From positions 744,001 to 808,000 of the forward strand of contig NZ_CP081958.1 in NCBI RefSeq assembly GCF_019823105.1: 64,000 nt of DNA. Reading direction: 5' to 3'. The DNA is from Halobaculum magnesiiphilum (GTDB taxonomy: Archaea > Halobacteriota > Halobacteria > Halobacteriales > Haloferacaceae). Both the position numbers and the translations under genes were made by a program. Below are positions 755-12,683 of this stretch, piece by piece (position 1 is the first letter of the stretch; each line of letters starts with the position of its first letter). Under the pieces are notes generated by a model, which searched no databases, had not been told where the DNA came from, and saw only the letters and a list, made by a program, of their open reading frames with translations.

Positions 755-1026
755 GTGCGCTCTCGGACGTCGTGTCCGGTGGATAGCATTACTCTGGTTC
801 TGGCTGGAGCGACCGATGATCTCTCCCGACGCGTGACGGATAGCCGACGAGACGAGCGCCCTCCTGTCGTGTCGAGTCTCAGTGCTATCCGAGGGTTCTT
901 AACATGTGTCATGCTACGCTGTGTCAGGATGAATCGGCGGGAACGAATCGGTTCGTCTCCGAGGTATCTCGATACCGCTCGGATCGGTATGATCGACCTC
1001 CGTACGTCGTCGGTGCCCGGACGACG

Positions 1027-3183
1027 ATGACGCTCCTCGATGTCGACGACCTATCGGTTCGGTACGACACGCGTGAGGGGCCGCTCCACAGCGTGAACGG
1101 CATTTCGTTCGGTATCGACGACGGTATCAACTACGCGCTCTCGGGTGAGTCGGCCTCGGGAAAGTCCACGACCGCGAAGGCCATCCTGGGGCTGTTGCCG
1201 GACCACGCGGAGATCGAGTCGGGAGCCATCGAGTTCGAGGGACGGGACCTGCGCTCGCTGACGCCGTCGGAGCGGCAGGATCTACTCTGGGAGGAGATCG
1301 CGTTCATTCCACAGACGGCCATCGACGCGCTCGACCCGGTGATGACGGCCGGCGCACAGATCAGGCAGGCGATCCAGACACACCGGGAGCTCTCGGAACG
1401 CAACGCCCGTCGGCGCGCACGCGAACTGTTCGAGATGGTCGGGCTGGACCCCGACCGGGTCGACGACTATCCCCACCAGTTCTCGGGCGGGATGCGCCAA
1501 CGTGTCGTCATCGCGATGGCGCTCGCGCTCGATCCGAAGCTCATCATCGCGGACGAACCAACGACGGGCCTGGACGTGGTGGTCCAGGACAAGATCATCG
1601 ACAACATCCTCCAGATACAGGAAGAGACCGACAGCTCGCTCCTGTTGATCACGCACGACTTGAGCGTCATCGCCGAGACCTGCGACGAGATGTCGGTCAT
1701 GTACGGCGGGAAGATCATGGAGCAGGGCCGCGTGGAGAACCTCCTGCTCAACCCCACGAACCCGTACACGATGGGGTTGAAGAACGCGTTTCCGGCGCTC
1801 GACGACGACGCCGACGACCTCGTCTCCGTCCCGGGAAAGCCGCCGAGCCTCGGCACCGAGCCGACGGGCTGTGTCTTCGAGCCGCGCTGTCCGTTCTCGA
1901 GCGAGGAGTGTGCGACGACGGAACCGGACGTGGAGACGATCCCGTACCGGAACCAGCGAGTCGCCTGCCACAACGCGGATCGAGCCGCACGGATACGCCA
2001 GGAGGCCGACGACGCCTCCAGGTGGGGCGGCGCCACGGAAGGGTCACGATCCCGTGACGGTGAGGTGTTGCTCGAAGTCACCGACCTCTGCAAGTGGTAC
2101 GAGCGTTCGGAGTCGCTGTTGGGGCGCTTCCCCATCGACGGCCTCTCGCCGACGGTAACCGGCATCTCGAACAGCGTCCGCCGGTGGTACGAACAGCGCG
2201 GCGAGATCCTCAACGAGGTGCTCAGGGACGGCGGATCGCACGTTCGCGCCGTCGACGGCGTTTCGTTGTCCGTCGCACGTGGAGAGATCCTGGGCGTCGT
2301 CGGCGAGTCGGGCTGTGGGAAGACGACGCTCGGCCAAACGCTCGCGCTTCTGGAGGATCCGACGGACGGCGGGTTCGAGTTCGACGGTCGCTCACACGAG
2401 TACTATCAGGACGGGAACCTCCAGTCGTTCCGGCAACGGGTCCAGATCGTCTTCCAGAACCCGTACGACTCGCTGAACCCGCGGCTGACCGTCGAACAGT
2501 TGGTCAAGGAGCCCCTGACGATTCACGACTACCGGACGGACGAGAAACCCGAGGCCGTCCGGGAGGCGCTCGAGCAGGTCGGGATGGCGCCCGCCGAGAA
2601 CTATCTCGAGAAGTATCCGAACGAGCTGTCCGGCGGGCAGCGACAGCGTGTCGCGATCGCCCGTGCGCTCGTTATCGACCCGGACTTCTTCATCTGCGAC
2701 GAGCCGGCGTCGATGCTCGACGTCTCGCTTCAGGCGGAGGTGCTCAACCTGCTTCGGACGCTCGCGAACACGCGGGGTATCGGCGTGTTGTACATCTCCC
2801 ACGACCTCGCGAGCCTCACCCAGATCGCCGATCGCCTCTCGATCATGTACCTCGGACGGTTCGTCGAACAGGGACGGACCGAGCGCGTCGTGAACGACCC
2901 GAAGCACCCCTACACGGAGGCACTACTCTCGGCCGTCCCCGAAACGGACCCGCGCGGCAGCCGCGAGCGCGTGTTCCTCGACGGGAACCCGTCCGACCCG
3001 GTCGGGGAACCGCAGGGGTGCCGGTTCGCCCCCCGCTGTCCGAAGGTAACCGACGAGTGTCTGGACGCGGAGCCCGAACTCGACGAGTGGACGGAACCGG
3101 ACCACTCGGCCGCGTGTTTCCGGCCGGCGGAGCGATCGGAGCCGGACGAGCCCGCACGGGTCAGTGAGTCCGTCGACGACTGA
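1027..3183 (+). CDS. Fused double-ATPase of peptide/nickel ABC transporter (DppD-DppF type), orphan
   Basis: This 718-residue protein carries two complete ABC ATPase domains in one chain and would power import through peptide/nickel family permeases. Domain 1 has Walker [10 protein letters not shown] near residue 40, signature FSGGMRQR near 152 and Walker [13 protein letters not shown] near 173. Domain 2 has Walker [10 protein letters not shown] near 426, signature LSGGQRQR near 534 and CDEPASMLD near 558. Each domain is followed by the OppD/F C-terminal cysteine region (CVFEPRCP and CRFAPRCP). The ATG at 1027 is preferred over an in-frame ATG at 904 because the N-terminus then matches the paralogue encoded at 9661-11766. 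No permease or binding protein adjoins it, so it may serve permeases elsewhere. Substrate unknown. Confidence 0.9.
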
Positions 3184-3387: not shown

Positions 3388-4242
3388 ATGGTTCAGCGCT
3401 CGCTGCTGTACTCGCCCGGGGACGACCGTGAGATGTTGAAGAAGGCCGTCGAGACCGGGGCGGACACGGTCGTCTTCGATCTGGAGGACGCCGTCGCGCC
3501 CGCCGCGAAGGAGGGGGCGCGGGCGACCGTCCGGTCGATGCTCGACGACCTCGACGACCCGACCCCGGACGTCGCCGTCCGCATCAATCCGTACGACCTT
3601 TCGGGACCGGCCGATGTCGCCGCAGTCGTCGGCGAGACCGAACGGCCCCCCGACAGTATCCTCCTCCCGAAAGTGAACGACGCCGAGCCCGTCGAGGCCC
3701 TCCGTGACCAACTCACGGAACTCGGGGCGGACGCCGTCGGCATCGTCCCGCTGATCGAGACGGCGGCGGGTGTCATCGCCGCCAACGAGATCGCGGCCGC
3801 ACCGGGCGTCACGGCCGTCGCGTACGGCGACCAGGACTTCACCGCCGATATCGGTGCGACCGTGACCGACGACAAAACGGAGTCGCTGTACGCCCGCCAG
3901 CGGACGGTCGTCGCCGCGGCCGCCGCCGGCGTCGACGCGCTCGACACCGTCCACACCGACATCGGTGACACGGAGGGACTCCGCGAACAGACCGAGTTCG
4001 TCGTCGAACTCGGCTTCGACGGGAAGCTCGCGATCCACCCGGACCAGATCGCCGTCATCAACGAGGCGTTCACGCCGGGGGAAGACGAGCTCGAGTGGGC
4101 CGAGACGGTGCTCGCCGGGCAGGAACGGGCGAGCGACGAGGGCGACGGCGTGTTCACCGTGGACGGGCAGATGATCGACCCGCCGCTGGTCGAGCGCGCT
4201 CGGACGATCGTCCGGCGGGCGGAGGCTGCCGGGATCCGGTAG
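3388..4242 (+). CDS. CitE-like HpcH/HpaI family lyase
   Basis: The 284-residue protein belongs to the citrate lyase beta / malyl-CoA lyase branch of the HpcH/HpaI aldolase family. These enzymes make or break C-C bonds in acyl-CoA thioesters such as malyl-CoA or citramalyl-CoA. Visible family features are SLLYSPGD near the start, DLEDAV at 31-36, VRINP around 65, LLPKVND near 93, the metal-binding Glu in PLIETAAGV near 124, the Asp-rich YGDQDFTADIG around 147 and AIHPDQI in the C-terminal part. Length is normal. It has its own promoter and is followed by convergent metallo-beta-lactamase-fold genes. The nearby ADP-forming acyl-CoA synthetase could supply its thioester substrate; that is inference. 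Exact substrate cannot be read from sequence. Confidence 0.85.
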   Translation: MVQRSLLYSPGDDREMLKKAVETGADTVVFDLEDAVAPAAKEGARATVRSMLDDLDDPTPDVAVRINPYDLSGPADVAAVVGETERPPDSILLPKVNDAEPVEALRDQLTELGADAVGIVPLIETAAGVIAANEIAAAPGVTAVAYGDQDFTADIGATVTDDKTESLYARQRTVVAAAAAGVDALDTVHTDIGDTEGLREQTEFVVELGFDGKLAIHPDQIAVINEAFTPGEDELEWAETVLAGQERASDEGDGVFTVDGQMIDPPLVERARTIVRRAEAAGIR

Positions 4243-4274: not shown

Positions 4275-5015
4275 CTACGCGACCGAGTGCTCCGAGGCGA
4301 TCCGCTCGATCGAATCGCGGAGTCGCTCGCGATACGTGTCGAGGTCGTCGCCCACGATGGGGTTACCGTGGATCGGCGCGACGGCGTTCACGTCGTACGA
4401 CGCGAAGATGTCGTCGAGCGTCCGGTCGACTTTCTCCGGGGCGACATAGCGGAGCCAGACGAGGTTGTCGCGATGGTACTCGTAGATCCGTTCCGTCGGG
4501 GTCGACTCCGGGAAGTCGTCAGAGAGGGAGTCGCATCGCCCGGGGTCGTGGTAGTTCCCGAACCCGTCGGCGGTGAAGAGGACGCCGTCGCCGTGGTCGT
4601 AGATCCACGTCGTGTGCGACCGGTCGGCCAGCGGCGGGTCGATGAAGCTGAACTCCCGGCCCTCGATCGTCAGCGAGCCGCCGATGTCGCACTTGCGGGC
4701 GTCCGGGAGCCCCTGCTGGGCCGGCGACGCCGACGAGGCGACGAGTTCGACGTCCTCGGTGTCGCCGCCCAGCGGCGAGACGTTCGCCGCGTGGGGATAA
4801 TCCGAGTGTGAGAGGACGATGGCGTCCGGCCCGTCGCCGTCGGTCGCCTCGTCGACGGCGGCGGTGATCTCCTCGCGGTGGTAGAACGACCCCGAGTCGA
4901 CGAGGACCGTCCCCTCCGGCGCGCGAAGGAGGTACAGCGAGACGTGTTCGTGGTCCCCCTCGTGTTCGTAACACTGGTTGATCCACTCGACGCTGGGGGT
5001 GACCTGGACCGTCAT
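4275..5015 (-). CDS. MBL-fold protein of flavodiiron (ODP)-like type
   Basis: The 246-residue protein has the metallo-beta-lactamase fold in the arrangement of the oxygen-binding di-iron domain of flavodiiron proteins. Candidate ligands are H70, D72 and H75 in SHSDYPH, H134, D150 in LFTADGFG and H216 in APIHG. The spacing follows the flavodiiron pattern H-x-E-x-D-H...H...D...H, but the Glu is Asp and the second-iron Asp is Pro (P74). There is no flavodoxin domain. A related gene lies just upstream in the same direction (5112-5918), 96 nt away, so the two are probably co-transcribed. Function is unknown; it could be a hydrolase or an altered oxygen/NO reductase-like protein. Confidence 0.75.
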   Translation of the reverse strand: MTVQVTPSVEWINQCYEHEGDHEHVSLYLLRAPEGTVLVDSGSFYHREEITAAVDEATDGDGPDAIVLSHSDYPHAANVSPLGGDTEDVELVASSASPAQQGLPDARKCDIGGSLTIEGREFSFIDPPLADRSHTTWIYDHGDGVLFTADGFGNYHDPGRCDSLSDDFPESTPTERIYEYHRDNLVWLRYVAPEKVDRTLDDIFASYDVNAVAPIHGNPIVGDDLDTYRERLRDSIERIASEHSVA

Positions 5016-5111
5016 GCGTGTCCCTCCGCGCTGGCGTGTGCGCTCGTCTCCTCGCTCGTGGTGGTGTGTGCGCTCACCTGCTTGCTCGTGTAGGTGTGTC
5101 CCGTCATCCGT

Positions 5112-5918
5112 TCACCCGAGGGTTCCCACCCGGCCCTGTTCGTCGATCGTGCGCGTCACGTCCTTCATGAGTTCCATGTAGTCGGTGGCGTCCTCGCGGA
5201 TGACGAGCCCGTGTGCCGGCGCGACGATCTCCGGGTCGAACTTCTCGATCAGGGCGTCGATCTCCGCGTTCGTCTTCTCGACGTCGACGTACTGGTACCA
5301 GAACAGCACCCGTCCGTGAAACTCGACGAGCCGACTGCTGTCGAACTCCCCGTCGAGTTCGTCCACGAAGACCAGCCGCTCGTCGTCGAGGTGCGTGAAC
5401 CCCATCCAGTCGACCGGGAACAGCGTCCCCGTCTCCCGTTCGGTCATCCACACCGAGACGGGCGCGTCGAGGAACGTCGCCTCGTGGAACTCGACGGTGC
5501 GGTTCCCGAGGTCGATCTCGTCGCCCTCGGTGACGTGGACCCCGTAGTCGAGCCGGTAGAGTTCGTGGTCGTTCCCGTAGCCGGGAGCGACGAGCGTCGT
5601 CTCCGGGTGCTCCTCGAGGATCGCGAGCGCGTTCCCCGCGTGGGGGACGTCGGGGTGGGAGACGACGAGGTAGTCGAGCCCGCGGTCGCCGACGAGCTCG
5701 TCGATAGCCGCGAGGATCTCGTCGGTGCTCGCGGGCGACAGCGTGTCGAACAGTAGCGTCTCGTCGCCGCCGTCGACGAGGTACGCACACTGGGGCACGT
5801 ACGCCTCCCGCCCTTCCTCGTACCATTCCGGCTCACGGTCCGCCAGGTCCCACGACTCCGTCCTGTCCGGCCCGGCCTCGTAGATCCAGTGGAGACCGGG
5901 CGCGATCTCGCGTGGCAT
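5112..5918 (-). CDS. Second MBL-fold protein, HxDxPH motif
   Basis: The start chosen is the ATG at 5918, giving 268 residues (MPREIAPGLHWIY...), because upstream in-frame codons do not resemble the family. The fold signature is SHPDVPH at 87-93, LFPVDWMGF around 166 with D170, and APAHG with H236. It shares the unusual H-x-D-x-P-H motif with the neighbouring 4275-5015 product, and it also lacks the central His found there (V155 stands at the equivalent place). It is longer by an N-terminal extension rich in Glu and Trp. Probably cytoplasmic. The pair look like diverged tandem paralogues, and no activity can be assigned with confidence. Confidence 0.75.
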   Translation of the reverse strand: MPREIAPGLHWIYEAGPDRTESWDLADREPEWYEEGREAYVPQCAYLVDGGDETLLFDTLSPASTDEILAAIDELVGDRGLDYLVVSHPDVPHAGNALAILEEHPETTLVAPGYGNDHELYRLDYGVHVTEGDEIDLGNRTVEFHEATFLDAPVSVWMTERETGTLFPVDWMGFTHLDDERLVFVDELDGEFDSSRLVEFHGRVLFWYQYVDVEKTNAEIDALIEKFDPEIVAPAHGLVIREDATDYMELMKDVTRTIDEQGRVGTLG

Positions 5919-6074
5919 GCGTTCACACCTGAACTGGCCGGCACAAAAGCCGTGGTGACCGTTCACTCCCCCCTATTTGAACGCCGGCGAGCATCGACGG
6001 CTATCGGGTACGGGTCGCCGCCGCCATCGGACACTCCGGGATGGCGTCCGGGACGTGAACGACCCGTTCGTGGA

Positions 6075-7211
6075 TCAGTCGACCCGGAACTCCGCGAGGG
6101 TCTCGGGGTCGATCTCGATGCCGAGGCCGGGTCCGTCCGGCACGGGCACCTCGGTCCCCTCGTTGCGGATCGGGTCGACCGCGAGTTCCTCGCGGATCGG
6201 GTTCGGCGTCCGGTCGAACTCCAGGCGCGGCGATCCCGGAAGCGTCGCGAGCAACTGCAGGCTCGCCGCGAGCGCGACGGCGCTCCCGAAGACGTGCGGG
6301 TACGTCGCCAGCCCGGCGGCGTCGGCGATCTCGGCGGCCCGGCGCGACGAGGTGAGCCCGCCGGCGCTGGTTACGTCCGGCTGGAGGACGTCGACCGCGC
6401 CGGCGTTCGCCACGCGCCGGAACTCGGGCGCGAACGCCCAGCATTCCCCGCCGGCGATCGATACGTCGCTGTCCTCGGCGAGTCGTGCGTACGCGTCGAT
6501 CCGGTCGGGAGGGAGCGGTTCCTCGAAGAACTCGACGTCCAGATCCGCGAGGCCGTCGGCCACGCGGCGGGCCGCCGGGAGATCGTAGGCGTGGTTCGCG
6601 TCCGCCATCAACGCGACGTCGTCGCCCACCGCCTCCCGGACGGCGCGGACGAGTTCCACGTCGTACTCCGGCCCCCAGCCGAAGTGTCGCTGCATGCCGA
6701 TCTTCATCTTGAGTGCGCCGAACCCGGCGTCGACGTGGGACTCCGCCTCCGAGACGACCGACTCCCTGACCGTCTCGAACTCGTCGGCTGGCGGCCAGAA
6801 GTGTCCGGTCGCGTACGCGGGGACCGCGTCGCGCCGTCGCCCCCCGAGCAGCGTCGCGGCCGACGCCCCGGCCGCGTTCCCGCGGAGGTCCCAGAGCGCG
6901 AGGTCGACACCGCTGACGGCGCCCGCCGGAATCGTCGAGTGGTACGCCGACCGGAGGTCGTGAACGAGGTCCCCGTGGACCGACTCGACGCGTTCGGCGT
7001 CCCGCCCCCGAAGAACCGCCGCGATCCGGTCGTCGATCAGTTCGCGCGTTCCCGCTATCGGCCCCCAGCACTCGCCCCAGCCGACGGCGCCGTCCGCGGT
7101 CTCGATCCGAACCAGACAGTACTCGCGCGAGTCGATCCACTTCTGTGCGTTCGCGAACCGCTCGTCGAGCTCTCGACGTAACGGAACCGCCTCGACGTGT
7201 CGGATCTCCAT
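6075..7211 (-). CDS. Enolase-superfamily (mandelate racemase/muconate lactonizing) enzyme
   Basis: The 378-residue protein has the full active-site set of the mandelate racemase/muconate cycloisomerase group. It shows KMK at 168-170, metal ligands D204 in ADANHAY, E230 in FFEEPL and E256 in GGE, plus QPD with D279 and the H306 of YPHVFGS. This combination of a KxK base and an Asp/His dyad typically abstracts a proton alpha to a carboxylate, in sugar-acid dehydration or racemisation. It sits beside an acyl-CoA synthetase transcribed divergently (7310), so a shared intergenic promoter region is likely. Substrate unknown; an acid-sugar dehydratase is the simplest guess. Confidence 0.88.
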   Translation of the reverse strand: MEIRHVEAVPLRRELDERFANAQKWIDSREYCLVRIETADGAVGWGECWGPIAGTRELIDDRIAAVLRGRDAERVESVHGDLVHDLRSAYHSTIPAGAVSGVDLALWDLRGNAAGASAATLLGGRRRDAVPAYATGHFWPPADEFETVRESVVSEAESHVDAGFGALKMKIGMQRHFGWGPEYDVELVRAVREAVGDDVALMADANHAYDLPAARRVADGLADLDVEFFEEPLPPDRIDAYARLAEDSDVSIAGGECWAFAPEFRRVANAGAVDVLQPDVTSAGGLTSSRRAAEIADAAGLATYPHVFGSAVALAASLQLLATLPGSPRLEFDRTPNPIREELAVDPIRNEGTEVPVPDGPGLGIEIDPETLAEFRVD

Positions 7212-7240
7212 CTCGTTGTGGGCCGATCGGTGCCATCCCT

Positions 7241-7246
7241 GATAAA
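7241..7246 (-). promoter_or_regulatory. TATA-like box for the enolase-superfamily gene
   Basis: On the reverse strand TTTATC lies 29 nt before the ATG at 7211. This fits a leaderless or nearly leaderless haloarchaeal transcript. Confidence 0.4.
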
Positions 7247-7309
7247 GAATGATTACTATGGCGTCGCTTCGGGGGCAGGTACAGGCCGGTCTCCGGAGTA
7301 GCGACCCCC

Positions 7310-9457
7310 ATGGAAGACACCGACCCGACGCTATCGAGCGCCGACCTCGCGGTCCCGGAACTGGGTCCGCTGTTCGACCCGGACTCGGTCGCCGTCGTCG
7401 GCGCCAGTCCCGACTCGTTTTACTCCGGGAACCTCGTGGACAACCTCCTCGGATACGGGTTCGACGGAACGTTGTACCCCGTCAATCCCGGACGTGACGA
7501 GGTCTGGGGGCGGGAGTGTTACGACGACATCGACGACGTGCCCGAGACGGTCGACCTCGCCGTCGTGAGCGTCCCGCGAGAGTACGTCGTCGATGTGGTC
7601 GCGTCCGCCGGCCAGCGGGGCGTGCCGGTCGCGCTCGTCCTCACCGCCGGGTTCTCGGAGGCCGACGAGGAGGGCCGCGACTTGGAGGCGCAGCTCGCCG
7701 AGGCGGCCGCCGACACCGGTATCCGCGTCGTCGGACCGAACTGTATCGGCGTGATGTCGGCCAGGGGCGCGACGCTCACGTCGACCTGTTCACGCGAACC
7801 GGAGCCCGGTCGGATCGGCCTCGTCAGTCAGTCAGGCGCGCTGGCGTTCACCACCTTCTTCGAGCGTGCGGCGGACAGGGATCTCCATTTCAGCCACATC
7901 GTCTCGACCGGCAACGAGACCGACCTGACGCTGACAGACTACGTCGCCTATCTCGCCGAGCGGGACACCGTCGACGTGATCTGTACCTACGTCGAGGGGA
8001 TCGACGACCCCGAGCGGTTCATGCGTGTCGCCGAGCGGGCGACCCGCGACGGTACCCCGGTCATGACGGTCAAGATCGGACAGTCCGACCTCGCCGAGGC
8101 GGCGACGCTCTCACACACCGGCTCCCTCACCGGTGGCGACGACGCGTGGCAGGCTGCGTTCGATCAAAGCGGCGTCCAGCGGGTACCCGACATTCCCGAC
8201 CTGCTCTCGCGGGCGACCGCCCACACCGCCTACGACCACGTCGACGGCGACCGACTCTGTATCGCCTCGACCAGCGGCGGCCTCGCGAGCCTCCTGGCGG
8301 ATATGGCGGACGAACGGGACCTCGGGTTGCCCGACATCGACGGTGAGACCGAACGAACGCTGCTGGACATCGACGAGCTGCTGACCTTCGGCGGCTTCCA
8401 TAATCCCGCGGACATCCGCGGGTACGGCGCCGAGGTGCTCCCGGACATCGCCGACGCGCTGCTGGCCGACGACGCCTTCGACGCCTACCTCTTCGCGATC
8501 GGTCTCCCGGGGGTCGACGAGCGCGCCGAGACCATCGCCGAGGATCTGGAGGAGATCGTCGCGGGTGCCGACGACCCGGTGTACGTCCTCTGGACCGGGC
8601 GGAAGGAACCGGACGACCCGACCGTGACGCCGCCGTACGCACGCCTCCGGGAGTCCGTGCCGGTGTACGAGGACCCGGGGCGGTGTCTGGACGCGATCGC
8701 GTCGACGACCCGGTACGTTTCGGACCGCGACCGCGTCGCCGGACGGCCGTCCAGGCGCGATCTCGCGGAGGATCTCGACGCGCCCGACCTCGACGTGCCT
8801 CGGGGGCGAGTCCTCGCGTGGGACGAGGCGGAACCCCTCCTGGACGCCTTCGACGTCCCCGTCGTCGAGACGCGCGTCGCGACCGACCCCGAGGAGGCGG
8901 TCGCGGCCGCCGAGGCCGTCGGCTATCCGGTCGTCCTGAAGGTGGACTCGCCGGCGCTCCCCCACCGGACGGACGCCGGCGCCGTCGCGCTCGACCTCGA
9001 CTCGCCGGAGGCGGTCCGTGAGGCGTACCGAGACGTGCGGGAGGCGGCGCTGGCACACGTCGACGAATCGGACGTAGCCGGCGTATTAGTCCAGCCGATG
9101 GTGGACGACGGCGTCGAGGCCATCCTGGGAGTCACCCCCGGCGACGTGTTCGACTCGGTCGTCACCGTCGGCCCCGGCGGTGTCCTGGTGGAGGCGCTCG
9201 ACGACAGCGCGGCACTCGTCCCGCCGTTCTCGCCGGTCGACGCGCGGCGAGCCGTCGAGGGAACCGCGCTCGCGGACCTGTTGACCGACCGCCGGGGCGG
9301 GGAGGCGCTGTCCGTCGACGCCGTCGTCGACCTCCTGGTGAACGTCGGGGAGTTGGCGGCGTCGGTGGACGCCGTGGCCGAACTCGACCTCAACCCGGTC
9401 GTGGTCACGGAGGACGGACCGATGGCCGTCGACGTACTGGTCCGGACGGACGAATAG
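7310..9457 (+). CDS. ADP-forming acetate/acyl-CoA synthetase (fused alpha-beta)
   Basis: The 715-residue enzyme would interconvert an acyl-CoA and ADP with the free acid and ATP. The N-terminal CoA-binding Rossmann domain starts with DPDSVAVVGASPD. The succinyl-CoA-synthetase-like region follows, with the phosphorylated His at H269 in LSHTGSLTGGD. The C-terminal third is an ATP-grasp domain (YPVVLKVDSPALPHRTDAG). Length is normal for the fused form used by haloarchaea. It is divergent from the enolase-superfamily gene and next in line after the CitE-like gene and the MBL pair, so it may activate or release the acid handled by those enzymes. That link is inferred from position only. Confidence 0.9.
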   Translation: MEDTDPTLSSADLAVPELGPLFDPDSVAVVGASPDSFYSGNLVDNLLGYGFDGTLYPVNPGRDEVWGRECYDDIDDVPETVDLAVVSVPREYVVDVVASAGQRGVPVALVLTAGFSEADEEGRDLEAQLAEAAADTGIRVVGPNCIGVMSARGATLTSTCSREPEPGRIGLVSQSGALAFTTFFERAADRDLHFSHIVSTGNETDLTLTDYVAYLAERDTVDVICTYVEGIDDPERFMRVAERATRDGTPVMTVKIGQSDLAEAATLSHTGSLTGGDDAWQAAFDQSGVQRVPDIPDLLSRATAHTAYDHVDGDRLCIASTSGGLASLLADMADERDLGLPDIDGETERTLLDIDELLTFGGFHNPADIRGYGAEVLPDIADALLADDAFDAYLFAIGLPGVDERAETIAEDLEEIVAGADDPVYVLWTGRKEPDDPTVTPPYARLRESVPVYEDPGRCLDAIASTTRYVSDRDRVAGRPSRRDLAEDLDAPDLDVPRGRVLAWDEAEPLLDAFDVPVVETRVATDPEEAVAAAEAVGYPVVLKVDSPALPHRTDAGAVALDLDSPEAVREAYRDVREAALAHVDESDVAGVLVQPMVDDGVEAILGVTPGDVFDSVVTVGPGGVLVEALDDSAALVPPFSPVDARRAVEGTALADLLTDRRGGEALSVDAVVDLLVNVGELAASVDAVAELDLNPVVVTEDGPMAVDVLVRTDE

Positions 9458-9660: not shown

Positions 9661-11766
9661 CTACAGCGTCATCTCCTCGCCGATCGCGTTCGAGATCTCG
9701 TCCTCGTGTTCCTCGGCGTAGCGTTCCAGCAGTTCCGTCTCGACGTCGTCGACCGGGAAGTAGCAGGCCGCCTCGTGCCCGTCGTCGGCGAACGCGGACC
9801 GCGACGGCTCCTCGCCGCGACACTCCTCGGTCGCCTTCGGGCACCGGGGTGCGAAGTTGCACCCGTTCGGCAGATCGACCGGGTTCGGCGGCTCGCCGGG
9901 CAAGAGCACCCGCTGACGGTCGATGTCCGGGTCCGTCCGGGGTGAGGCGGCCAGGAGCGACGCCGTGTAGGGGTGTTTGGGCGTCCGAACGACGTCCTCC
10001 GTGTCCCCGAGCTCCGCGATCCGCCCGAGGTACATCACCGCGAGGCGGTCGGCGATCTGGGTGAGGCTCGCGAGGTCGTGGGAGATGTAGATGATGCCGA
10101 TGTCCCGCTCGTCGGCCATCTCCCGCAGAATGTTGAGGATATTGGCCTTCAGGGAGACGTCGAGCATCGACGCCGGCTCGTCGCAGATGAGCAATCGCGG
10201 CTCGAGTACCAGCGCCTGCGCGATGGCGACGCGCTGGCGCTCTCCGCCCGACAGCTGCGCCGGCAGCTTGTCGAGGTACTTCTCGGCCGGCTTCAGGCCG
10301 ACGTCCTCGACCGTCTGTCTGACCCGGCGGTCGATGGCTTCGCGGTCGACCCCCTGGATCTTCAGGGGTTCGGAGACGGCCGCCTCGACCCGCTGGCGCG
10401 GGTTGAGGGAGTCGAACGGGTCCTGGAAGATGAACTGTACCTGCGAGCGGAACTTCTTCGTGCTCTCCTCGAGCAGCTCGTCGACCGAGGTGCCGTCGAC
10501 GTGGATCTCCCCGCCGGTTCGTTCCTGCAGCGCGGCGATCACCTCCGCGAGGGTCGATTTCCCACATCCCGACTCGCCGGCGACGCCGACGATCTCGCCC
10601 TCATGAACGGTGAGGTCGACATCGTTGACGGCCTTCACGTAGTCGGGATCGTTCCCGCGAAAGTCGTCGAGGATCCCCTGTGGCTGCTCGAACCACTTCT
10701 CGAGCCCGCGGGTTTCGAGGATGACGTCGCCGGTGTCGCCCGTCCTCCCGCTTTCGTCCCGGGGCTCTATCCCCCACGTCTCGGGGTCTTTGGCCTGCTC
10801 CCGCATCTCGTCGGCCCGGTCCGTGTAGTGACAGGCCGACAGTTGCCCGTCCGTCTCGACCAGTGGGGGATGGCGTTCCCCACATTCCTCCGTGGCGAAG
10901 GGACACCGGTTACGGAACACGCAGCCGGTCGGCTCGCGGGTGAGATCCGGCAGCGACCCCGGGATCGAGATCGCCTGCTCGTCGAACTCGTCGACCTCCG
11001 GGAAGGCGTTCTTCAGGCCCATCGAGTAGGGGTTCGTCGGCGCCCGGAACACCTCGTCAGTGTTGCCCTGCTCCATCACTTTCCCGCCGTACAGGACCGA
11101 CACCTCGTCGCACGTCTCGGCGACCACGCCCACATCGTGGGTGATGAGTAGGAGCGAACTCCCCGTCTTCTCTTGGATCTCCAGCAGCTTGTCGATGATC
11201 TTGTCCTGGACGATCACGTCCAGACCGGTCGTCGGCTCGTCGGCGATGATGAGATCCGGGTCCAGGGCGAGCGCCATCGCGATCGTGACGCGCTGGCGCA
11301 TCCCGCCCGAGAACTGGTGTGGGTAGTCGCCGGTCCGTGCGGGATCGAGCCCGACCATCTCGAACACCTCGGCGACGCGCTCGTTCGCGGTCGCTTTCGA
11401 GACGTTCCTGTGTTTGCGGATGGCCTGCCGGATCTGTGCGCCGACTGTCATCACCGGATCCAGCGAGTCCATCGCGCTCTGTGGGATGTACGAGATCTCC
11501 TCCCAGCGGACCGACCTCCAGTCGCGCTCGGAGAGATCGATCAGCTCCCGACCGTCGAACCGGATGCTTCCCGAGCGGATCTCCCCGTTGTCGTCGAGGA
11601 GTCCGAGGACCGCCTTGGCGACGGTCGACTTGCCGGAGCCGGACTCGCCGACGAGTCCGTAGTTGTCCCCCTCGTCGATCGAGAAGGAGACGTTGTTGAC
11701 GGCGTGGACGTCCCTGTTCGGCATCCGATACGTGATCTTCACGTCGTCGACTTCGAGCAGACTCAT
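9661..11766 (-). CDS. Fused double-ATPase of peptide/nickel ABC transporter
   Basis: This is the last gene of the operon 15686 to 9661. The 701-residue protein has two ABC domains. The first has Walker A GESGSGKST and signature FSGGMRQR, the second Walker A GESGCGKST and signature LSGGERQR. Each carries the OppD/F-type cysteine tail (CVFRNRCP and CNFAPRCP). The start at 11766 overlaps the stop of the upstream permease gene by 4 nt (ATGA), which indicates translational coupling. It acts at the cytoplasmic face, driving the permease pair encoded at 11763-13666. It closely resembles the orphan ATPase at 1027-3183 in architecture and motifs. Confidence 0.92.
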   Translation of the reverse strand: MSLLEVDDVKITYRMPNRDVHAVNNVSFSIDEGDNYGLVGESGSGKSTVAKAVLGLLDDNGEIRSGSIRFDGRELIDLSERDWRSVRWEEISYIPQSAMDSLDPVMTVGAQIRQAIRKHRNVSKATANERVAEVFEMVGLDPARTGDYPHQFSGGMRQRVTIAMALALDPDLIIADEPTTGLDVIVQDKIIDKLLEIQEKTGSSLLLITHDVGVVAETCDEVSVLYGGKVMEQGNTDEVFRAPTNPYSMGLKNAFPEVDEFDEQAISIPGSLPDLTREPTGCVFRNRCPFATEECGERHPPLVETDGQLSACHYTDRADEMREQAKDPETWGIEPRDESGRTGDTGDVILETRGLEKWFEQPQGILDDFRGNDPDYVKAVNDVDLTVHEGEIVGVAGESGCGKSTLAEVIAALQERTGGEIHVDGTSVDELLEESTKKFRSQVQFIFQDPFDSLNPRQRVEAAVSEPLKIQGVDREAIDRRVRQTVEDVGLKPAEKYLDKLPAQLSGGERQRVAIAQALVLEPRLLICDEPASMLDVSLKANILNILREMADERDIGIIYISHDLASLTQIADRLAVMYLGRIAELGDTEDVVRTPKHPYTASLLAASPRTDPDIDRQRVLLPGEPPNPVDLPNGCNFAPRCPKATEECRGEEPSRSAFADDGHEAACYFPVDDVETELLERYAEEHEDEISNAIGEEMTL

Positions 11767-12683
11767 TCTTGCTCCGTTTGTAGGTCGGGGTTGACTATCT
11801 CCTCGAACGCCCGCCCGACCAGGAAGACGGACGTCGTGACGGCACCGATACCGATCGCGGGCGGGAGTACCCACCACCACGCGACGCGGATGGCGCCCGA
11901 GCGGAACACCTGCTGGAGCATCCGGCCCCAGGAGGTGGTCGTCGGGTCGCCGAAGCCGAGGAACGCGAGCGACGCGCCGGCGACGATCGACCAGCCGACG
12001 GCGTACGCGGTGTAGAGGAAGCCGATCCCCAGCACGTTCGGGGCGACGTGCAGGAACATCGTCCGCATGTGGCCGGCGCCCCGCGCCCTGGCGGACTTGA
12101 CGAACGTCCGCTCTTTGACCGTCATCACTTCCGAGCGGATGACCCGCGCGGGCATCTTCCAGAGGAAGACGACCAGCACAGCGGTGATCAGCCAGACGCT
12201 CGGGGTCACGAACGAGAGGATCACGAGCGCCATCGGCAGGAACGGCAACGCGAACGTCAAGTCGGTCAGCCGCATCAGGATCTCGTCGACGCGGCCGCCG
12301 AAGTAGCCGCTCGTGAGCCCGACGAGGAATCCCAACACGCCGGTCCCGACGCCGCCGAACAGGCCGACGATGAGCGTCGGCCGTGCGCCGGCGAGGAACT
12401 GGCTCAAGACGTCCTTTCCGAACGAGGTGGTTCCCAAGATAGCCTTCCCGCCGGGCTCCTGGAGCCGCATCATCGACCCGCCCTGTTGGAGCGTGTCCTG
12501 AATGGGCTGGTAGGGGGCGATGTACGGCCCGAAGAGCCCGAGGAACACGAACACGACGAGCGTCACGAAGCCGACTTTCGCCGCGGTGTCCTCGAGGACG
12601 TAACTGAGTGTCCGCTTGGCTCGCCCGAACTCCGAACGCAGTCTGTCGACCGCGGTGTCGGTATCAAGCGTGTATCCCGACAT
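11763..12683 (-). CDS. dppC: ABC permease, DppC/OppC type
   Basis: The 306-residue membrane protein has about six hydrophobic segments, beginning with VGFVTLVVFVFLGLFGPY. The cytoplasmic loop SARARGAGHMRTMFLH is the binding-protein-dependent transport signature that docks with the ATPase. The N-terminal extension and the FGKDVLSQFLAGAR segment are typical of the DppC/OppC branch. Its start codon shares one base with the stop of the DppB-type gene (TGATG), and its stop overlaps the ATPase start. It forms the membrane channel together with the product of 12683-13666. Solute presumably a peptide, nickel complex or oligosaccharide; not determinable here. Confidence 0.9.
   Translation of the reverse strand: MSGYTLDTDTAVDRLRSEFGRAKRTLSYVLEDTAAKVGFVTLVVFVFLGLFGPYIAPYQPIQDTLQQGGSMMRLQEPGGKAILGTTSFGKDVLSQFLAGARPTLIVGLFGGVGTGVLGFLVGLTSGYFGGRVDEILMRLTDLTFALPFLPMALVILSFVTPSVWLITAVLVVFLWKMPARVIRSEVMTVKERTFVKSARARGAGHMRTMFLHVAPNVLGIGFLYTAYAVGWSIVAGASLAFLGFGDPTTTSWGRMLQQVFRSGAIRVAWWWVLPPAIGIGAVTTSVFLVGRAFEEIVNPDLQTEQE

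Follow-up and report, generated by a model that had tools for sequence, protein, structure and literature searches.

Two adjacent genes in the window (the whole stretch of 64,000 nucleotides of Halobaculum magnesiiphilum DNA that was analysed) encode MBL-fold proteins that resemble flavodiiron proteins (FDPs) and carry other residues at several of the FDP metal-binding positions. What kind of protein family, or pair of proteins, do such genes specify? The records that we read give its members no name beyond 'MBL fold metallo-hydrolase' or 'hypothetical protein', and we found no description of this pair in the open-licence (PMC) literature.

Two FDP-like proteins without a flavodoxin domain

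The two genes, denoted here a and b (Table 1), are 96 bases apart on the minus strand, and the tandem arrangement, strand and coordinates given by a first-pass annotation of the sequence hold. Both products score above the Pfam cut-offs for Lactamase_B and ODP (PF19583), the two families against which that annotation had proposed to search. For ODP the scores are 30.4 bits for a and 36.7 for b against a cut-off of 27.2, a poorly selective threshold that is exceeded in 91 of 284 haloarchaeal genomes, by HxHxDH proteins among others. As had also been claimed, Pfam matches no flavodoxin domain in either protein, and both stop after the MBL domain. Neither matches PF04909 in Pfam. With NCBIfam, every model (of hydrolases or of other proteins) stays below its cut-off for a and b, the best of them, flavorubredoxin, by a wide margin.

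The best relatives of both proteins in a sequence search of PDB were FDPs (1ycf for b, 1.4e-13; 6etb for a, 1.9e-4), and profile searches sharpened these matches to 2.5e-23 for b and 1.1e-11 for a. Between themselves, a and b of one locus share 23% identity on average (71 pairs). AlphaFold2 models (pLDDT 88.3 for b and 89.8 for a; pTM 0.90 each) give a similar picture. With VIA, the model of b matched 1ycf and 1e5d in PDB best (Z 25.2; 3.0 and 2.8 Å over 244 and 240 residues), followed by the chemotaxis ODP 6qwo (Z 21.8) and by beta-lactamases at about 19–20. Foldseek placed FDP cores on top for both models, with ODP next in the case of a. Both a (by Foldseek) and b (by Foldseek and VIA) are thus predicted to have the MBL core fold of FDPs.

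Table 1. Genes and putative metal-site residues of the locus (positions in the window)
Feature	Positions	Strand	Remarks
HpcH/HpaI, CitE-like CoA-ester lyase	3388..4242	+	Pfam/NCBIfam
Subunit a (MBL1)	4275..5015	-	246 aa; ODP-type MBL domain; intact-type ligand set HDPHDDH
a His216 (APIHG)	4368..4370	-	invariant in 34 a sequences
a Asp150, bridging-Asp position	4566..4568	-	invariant in 34 a sequences
a Asp131, replaces FDP middle His	4623..4625	-	alignment register with FDP
a motif His70-x-Asp72-x-Pro74-His75	4791..4808	-	alignment of a sequences
Subunit b (MBL2)	5112..5918	-	268 aa; ATG at 5918; ODP-type MBL domain; ligand set kept in 93/93 relatives
b His236 (APAHG)	5211..5213	-	93/93
b Asp170, bridging-Asp position of FDPs	5409..5411	-	93/93
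b Asp151, replaces FDP middle His	5466..5468	-	Asp 93/93 in b; His 7/7 in FDPs
b motif His88-x-Asp90-x-Pro92-His93 (FDP: H-x-E-x-D-H)	5640..5657	-	His88 93/93; Asp or Glu90 93/93; Pro92 90/93; His93 93/93
Enolase-superfamily (MR/MLE) enzyme	6075..7211	-	below-cut-off NCBIfam: sugar-acid dehydratases, cycloisomerases
ADP-forming acyl-CoA synthetase type	7310..9457	+	Pfam/NCBIfam

A conserved alteration of the metal site

The first-pass annotation had read H-x-D-x-P-H in both products within an otherwise partly kept di-iron layout, and the motif letters agree (LSHSDYPHAA, LFTAD and APIHG in a; VSHPDVPHAG, LFPVD and APAHG in b). We counted residues at the ligand positions in 103 a and 104 b sequences, a mixture of genomes and plasmids that came down to 97 and 93 once identical sequences and those shorter than 195 aa were removed, with seven FDPs as the reference. 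All seven FDPs have H-x-E-x-D-H followed by H, D and H. In b, six potential ligands (His88, Asp/Glu90, His93, Asp151, Asp170 and His236) are kept in every sequence, including the first and last motif His, the LFPVD Asp and the APAHG His on which the claim of a retained layout had rested. Position 90 is Glu in 51 sequences and Asp in 42, and position 92 is Pro except for two cases of Asn and one of Ala. Both substitutions noted at first, Glu to Asp and the second-iron Asp to Pro, are therefore real relative to FDPs. The alignment of metal positions proposed at the outset also revealed a third, common to both proteins: in register with the FDP 'LHWP' segment, a has Asp131 (LADR) and b has Asp151 (LDAP). 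The middle His had been said to be missing from the second protein; this is correct for b, but it is not peculiar to b. In a, the His of RSHTTW, which had been taken for the middle His, sits three residues past that position and is at least 90% conserved in 34 intact-type sequences, but it is absent from others, such as those of loci L018, L019, L021 and L023. Outside the ligand positions, Trp157 of b is found in 93/93 sequences and its equivalent in a in 97/97, and His176 of b in 84/93, with Leu in the remaining nine.

Thus b has neither the FDP ligand set (Pro in place of the second-site Asp in 90/93, Asp in place of the middle His in 93/93) nor the H-x-H-x-D-H motif of MBL hydrolases, the Asp of which is the same Pro and the second His of which is Asp or Glu in all 93.

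Protein a occurs in two main forms. Exactly HDPHDDH is present in 49 of 97 sequences, while in 43 the site is degenerate: Arg replaces both the first His and the motif-3 Asp, and 38 of these sequences conform to R-E-[DE]-C-R-D-[RYH]. The remaining five of the 97 carry different variants. The site is intact in archaea and Gemmatimonadetes-type bacteria and lost in actinobacterial and alphaproteobacterial pairs. Taken together, the ligand counts provide good support for the earlier suggestion of a conserved subfamily, in which a and b share an altered metal site. Judging by the sequences, the six potential ligands could accommodate one or two metals.

Pairing of the two genes

The most informative feature of the family is the pairing of a and b across archaea and bacteria. 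We scanned genome contigs with the pattern HP[ED]xPHAGN, derived from alignment A3, which biases the resulting 59 loci to near relatives; their hosts are haloarchaea, actinobacteria, and Gemmatimonadetes-type and proteobacterial MAGs. The partner gene adjoins b in 58 loci, and in the remaining one (L125) the sequence breaks off at a contig end, 24 bases past b. All 74 a+b pairs counted are encoded on the same strand, and gene order follows the state of a: degenerate a precedes b in 36 pairs and follows it in one, whereas intact a follows b in 36 and precedes it in one (L109). The pair scan used the first possible ORF starts, and the odd order in L109 is an artefact of a premature start, since the a domain there in fact follows b. 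Two pairs are present in one cluster in 16 loci, in one of which (L095) the reading frames are broken. Evolutionary distances of a and b are strongly correlated (r = 0.967, 71 pairs), a value to which shared descent alone contributes a part. Fusion of the two genes was considered as well, but long ORFs such as L012 1486-2949 turned out to be overlapping reading frames, and no fusion was seen among the loci.

Among 292 haloarchaeal genomes, the class to which the window belongs, 21 match a at E ≤ 0.001 and 19 do so strongly (E ≤ 2.3e-42). In all 19, b adjoins a; the other two are weak single matches. The pair is therefore rare in haloarchaea (19/292), and it is accessory, since only one of the seven genomes searched in the window's own genus has it. 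A search of 394 genomes from the Arthrobacter class found the pair in none but the centre genome, and single-gene relatives in eight others. Plasmid-borne pairs occur in haloarchaea, Rhodococcus, Paracoccus, Agrobacterium, Arthrobacter and Roseomonas, and the partner is annotated as a 'hypothetical protein' in the Rhodococcus, Agrobacterium and Roseomonas plasmids. The chromosome of Halorarius litoreus (NZ_CP101454.1) has two diverged a+b pairs (L106 and L108) about 16 kb apart. Halalkalicoccus jeotgali has an intact pair on plasmid 1 and, on a second plasmid (NC_014299.1, 110087-110368), a fragment that matches the N-terminal 95 or so residues of b; the match in another copy of this sequence (G060:C3:110087-110371) contains an internal stop.

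Single-gene relatives and the origin of the pair

Actinobacterial MBL relatives encoded at eight loci (L143–L150) are stand-alone domains with Asp at motif 3, as in the pair; they differ from it in being encoded by a single gene and in keeping the second-site Asp (H-x-[DE]-x-D-H). The motif-3 Asp was established for the seven that were aligned (L143–L147, L149 and L150), and no second relative scored within the 1.5 kb flanks of any of the eight. Because these proteins retain the second-site Asp but already have the motif-3 Asp, a stepwise change of the metal site is suggested, in which motif-3 His was replaced by Asp first and the second-site Asp by Pro later, in the paired family. It is possible that they represent its ancestral form. 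The series from FDPs through single genes to the pair would then make a readable case of metal-site rewiring.

In a tree of 95 rows, filtered to under 75% identity, FDPs form one branch (100/100) and b sequences group together weakly (63/35). Sequences of a fall into two blocks, degenerate (100/100) and intact; of 200 bootstrap trees, 19% contain a branch that separates all of a from the rest. A single duplication giving rise to a and b is likely, though not proven.

Genomic neighborhoods

In the window, the pair is surrounded by genes for a CitE-like lyase, an enolase-superfamily enzyme and an acyl-CoA synthetase (Table 1). This block is bracketed by two long genes for ABC transporter ATPases that resemble each other (904-3183 and 9661-11880). 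ABC transporter genes, a regulator and an aconitase near the pair could be named from a near-identical plasmid cluster of Halobaculum roseum, as could MFS-type transporter, PEP-mutase/methylisocitrate-lyase-like and PrpF-like genes further upstream in the genome of the window.

The first-pass annotation had linked the pair to CoA-ester and enolase-superfamily genes and had proposed to look for co-occurrence with the CitE-like gene. A CitE gene close to that of the window is present in 3 of 59 loci (L103–L105) and on plasmid L064. A more distant gene of the HpcH/HpaI family (PF03328) accompanies another 16 loci, of the Arthrobacter/Microbacterium type, so that 19 of 59 have an HpcH/HpaI neighbor; such a distant gene is also present in L072. 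An 'aldolase/citrate lyase family protein' is also annotated alongside the Roseomonas pair. No enolase-superfamily relative was found in the 59 loci (flanks up to 9 kb, E ≤ 1e-8), although one is present in plasmid L064 and, weakly, in L066. The link to CoA-ester chemistry thus stands for a part of the family and that to the enolase superfamily is local; neither is supported as a family-wide trait.

Other neighbors vary. An acyl-CoA synthetase like that of the window is encoded in 3 of the 59 loci, TctA transporters in 9 and TRAP-type DctM transporters in 11, with both types in one locus. One Arthrobacter-type cluster that we scanned gene by gene (L081, 10 genes) is rich in hydrolases and includes genes for isochorismatase, PuuE-like deacetylase, AMDase/EutA-like protein, amidohydrolase, amidase and cupin. 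Plasmids of Natrinema zhouii and Roseomonas carry 3-isopropylmalate-dehydratase-like, HMG-CoA-lyase-like and CoA-transferase genes. Our heuristic gene calls picked some antisense ORFs (producing false absences of the pair in L091 and L127), and statements about neighbors rest on other reads. Their gene content suggests that the clusters serve the peripheral catabolism of small molecules, many of them carboxylated or nitrogen-containing, with no single substrate in common. Upstream of the island in L141, a long ORF (4928-8694) resembles by eye the HerA/VirB4-type ATPases of mobile elements.

A Rieske protein and its probable partner

In seven of the 59 loci (L091, L092, L097, L099, L100, L102 and L123), from haloarchaea, Pseudonocardia and one proteobacterial MAG, a small Rieske protein is encoded near the pair; Pfam confirmed it in L100, L091, L092 and the L068/L102 record. 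We considered whether this ferredoxin might be the electron donor of the pair. However, a PF04909 gene is present in all seven loci, and in Saliphagus (L100) all four genes share a strand in the order b, a, PF04909, Rieske, with the last two overlapping. In L100 and L092, the PF04909 product has its best structure matches among ARO monooxygenases (8sm7, 8sm9 and 8sm6, AibH1H2 entries), and passages of PMC10401708 and PMC10811679 report that AibH2-like PF04909 proteins can be accompanied by small Rieske proteins. Moreover, 70 of the 292 haloarchaeal genomes have this Rieske type, for which the window's own genome shows no match. The idea was therefore dropped as a main argument: given the PF04909 gene in 7/7 loci, the ARO structure matches and the known company of ARO and Rieske proteins, the Rieske gene probably serves the ARO-type protein and not the pair. 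In this subset the pair may be a companion of ARO-type pathways, which is a lead in itself. According to PMC10811679, its authors could not infer the natural ARO substrates from genomic data, and PF04909 and Rieske genes beside the pair (ARO-type in the two cases tested) could help to find them.

A possible two-subunit metalloenzyme

How might these observations fit together? Our tentative proposal, to which we give slightly less than an even chance, is that a and b form a two-subunit, FDP-derived metalloenzyme of peripheral catabolism, in which b is catalytic and uses iron or manganese together with O2 in an oxidative step. Two paralogous MBL proteins with an FDP/ODP core would make up one enzyme. 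The catalytic role would belong to b, with its ligand set kept in all sequences, and a would be its paralogous partner, its site retained in some lineages and degenerate in others. With sites numbered as in FDPs and other MBL proteins, replacement of the second-metal Asp by Pro and of the first-metal His by Asp would produce an acidic site 1 (His88, Asp/Glu90, Asp151 and Asp170), and site 2 would retain two His (His93 and His236) and one Asp (Asp170), with one position freed. A small organic substrate and O2 might bind iron or manganese at that position. No direct redox partner was found in the neighborhoods that we read. The named cultured genera carrying the pair are, we presume, aerobes; since in addition the hydrolase site is gone, site 2 would keep two His and one Asp and the core is FDP-like, iron or manganese with O2 is slightly favored. 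In passages of PMC7785958, MBL oxidoreductases are described as binding iron in sites of more acidic character than those that hold zinc. An excerpt of PMC6658166 offers a precedent for FDP heterodimers in cyanobacterial Flv1/Flv3 and Flv2/Flv4.

Most MBL proteins are hydrolases, and the pair could instead be a two-subunit hydrolase of a lactone, ester, cyclic amide or CoA thioester that uses one or two divalent metals and follows an oxygenase or cycloisomerase encoded elsewhere in the cluster. Such a role is somewhat less likely but a serious possibility. In its favor, oxygenases are already at hand in several clusters: PF04909/ARO-type proteins with Rieske, an FMO-like protein near the Rhodococcus pair (L075), and an LLM-class oxidoreductase with flavin reductase annotated near the Agrobacterium pair. 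Many neighbors are themselves hydrolases, as in L081, the cupin of which may itself be an oxygenase, and an MR/MLE enzyme adjoins the pair in the window. Against hydrolysis speak the absence of HxHxDH in b and the failure of any NCBIfam hydrolase model to reach its cut-off. On balance, oxidative chemistry is slightly preferred. That a and b are independent neighboring enzymes of one pathway, each a homodimer, is improbable. Intact-type a does have a complete site of its own, and the FDP ROO is a homodimer (as described in passages of PMC7785958), but 43 of 97 a proteins have lost the site and their genes still adjoin b, so that a partner role fits a better. A non-enzymatic role such as sensing of O2 or a metal seems more improbable still: the chemotaxis ODP is indeed the closest stand-alone, flavodoxin-free solved relative among those listed, yet the neighbors read are mostly transporters and catabolic-type genes, and 16 loci have two pairs per cluster.

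A more specific form of the oxidative proposal would make the family a hitherto undescribed class of two-subunit non-heme iron (or manganese) oxygenases, in which loss of the second-site Asp opens a 2-His-1-Asp triad to substrate and O2 and the partner is a pseudoenzyme in some bacteria. Such oxygenases would serve clusters that lack a typical oxygenase in the parts read (the window type and, cupin aside, the Arthrobacter type). We regard this full version as rather unlikely. If the reaction is oxidative, it would represent a new oxygenase type in the MBL fold and could fill missing steps of catabolic clusters, some of them ARO-bearing. Whatever the reaction, the pairing marks out a family found across archaea and several bacterial groups.

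Relation to known systems

FDPs (FprA, ROO and flavorubredoxin) share with the pair the MBL core fold, the first and last motif His, the bridging Asp, the last His and an acidic second position. The pair differs in having no flavodoxin domain, Pro for the second-site Asp, Asp for the middle His, and two different genes. Because both the FDP ligand set and the FMN flavodoxin domain were looked for and neither is present, the pair is not an FDP proper. The chemotaxis ODP proteins (6qwo, 6r9n and 6qrq) are likewise stand-alone MBL domains of similar fold without flavodoxin, but they differ from the pair in ligand set, gene setting and pairing.

Comparisons can also be drawn with more distant systems. 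ETHE1 persulfide dioxygenase is described in passages of PMC4383860 as a mono-iron enzyme of the MBL fold that binds iron through His79, His135 and Asp154. Two His and one Asp would thus serve in both cases, but in ETHE1 they form site 1 and in the pair site 2. Flv1/Flv3 and Flv2/Flv4 are FDP-type heterodimers, as the pair may be, and some class-C FDPs have lost metal ligands (as noted in passages of PMC7785958), as have the degenerate a subunits. The Flv proteins differ from a and b in being three-domain proteins of photosynthetic electron flow.
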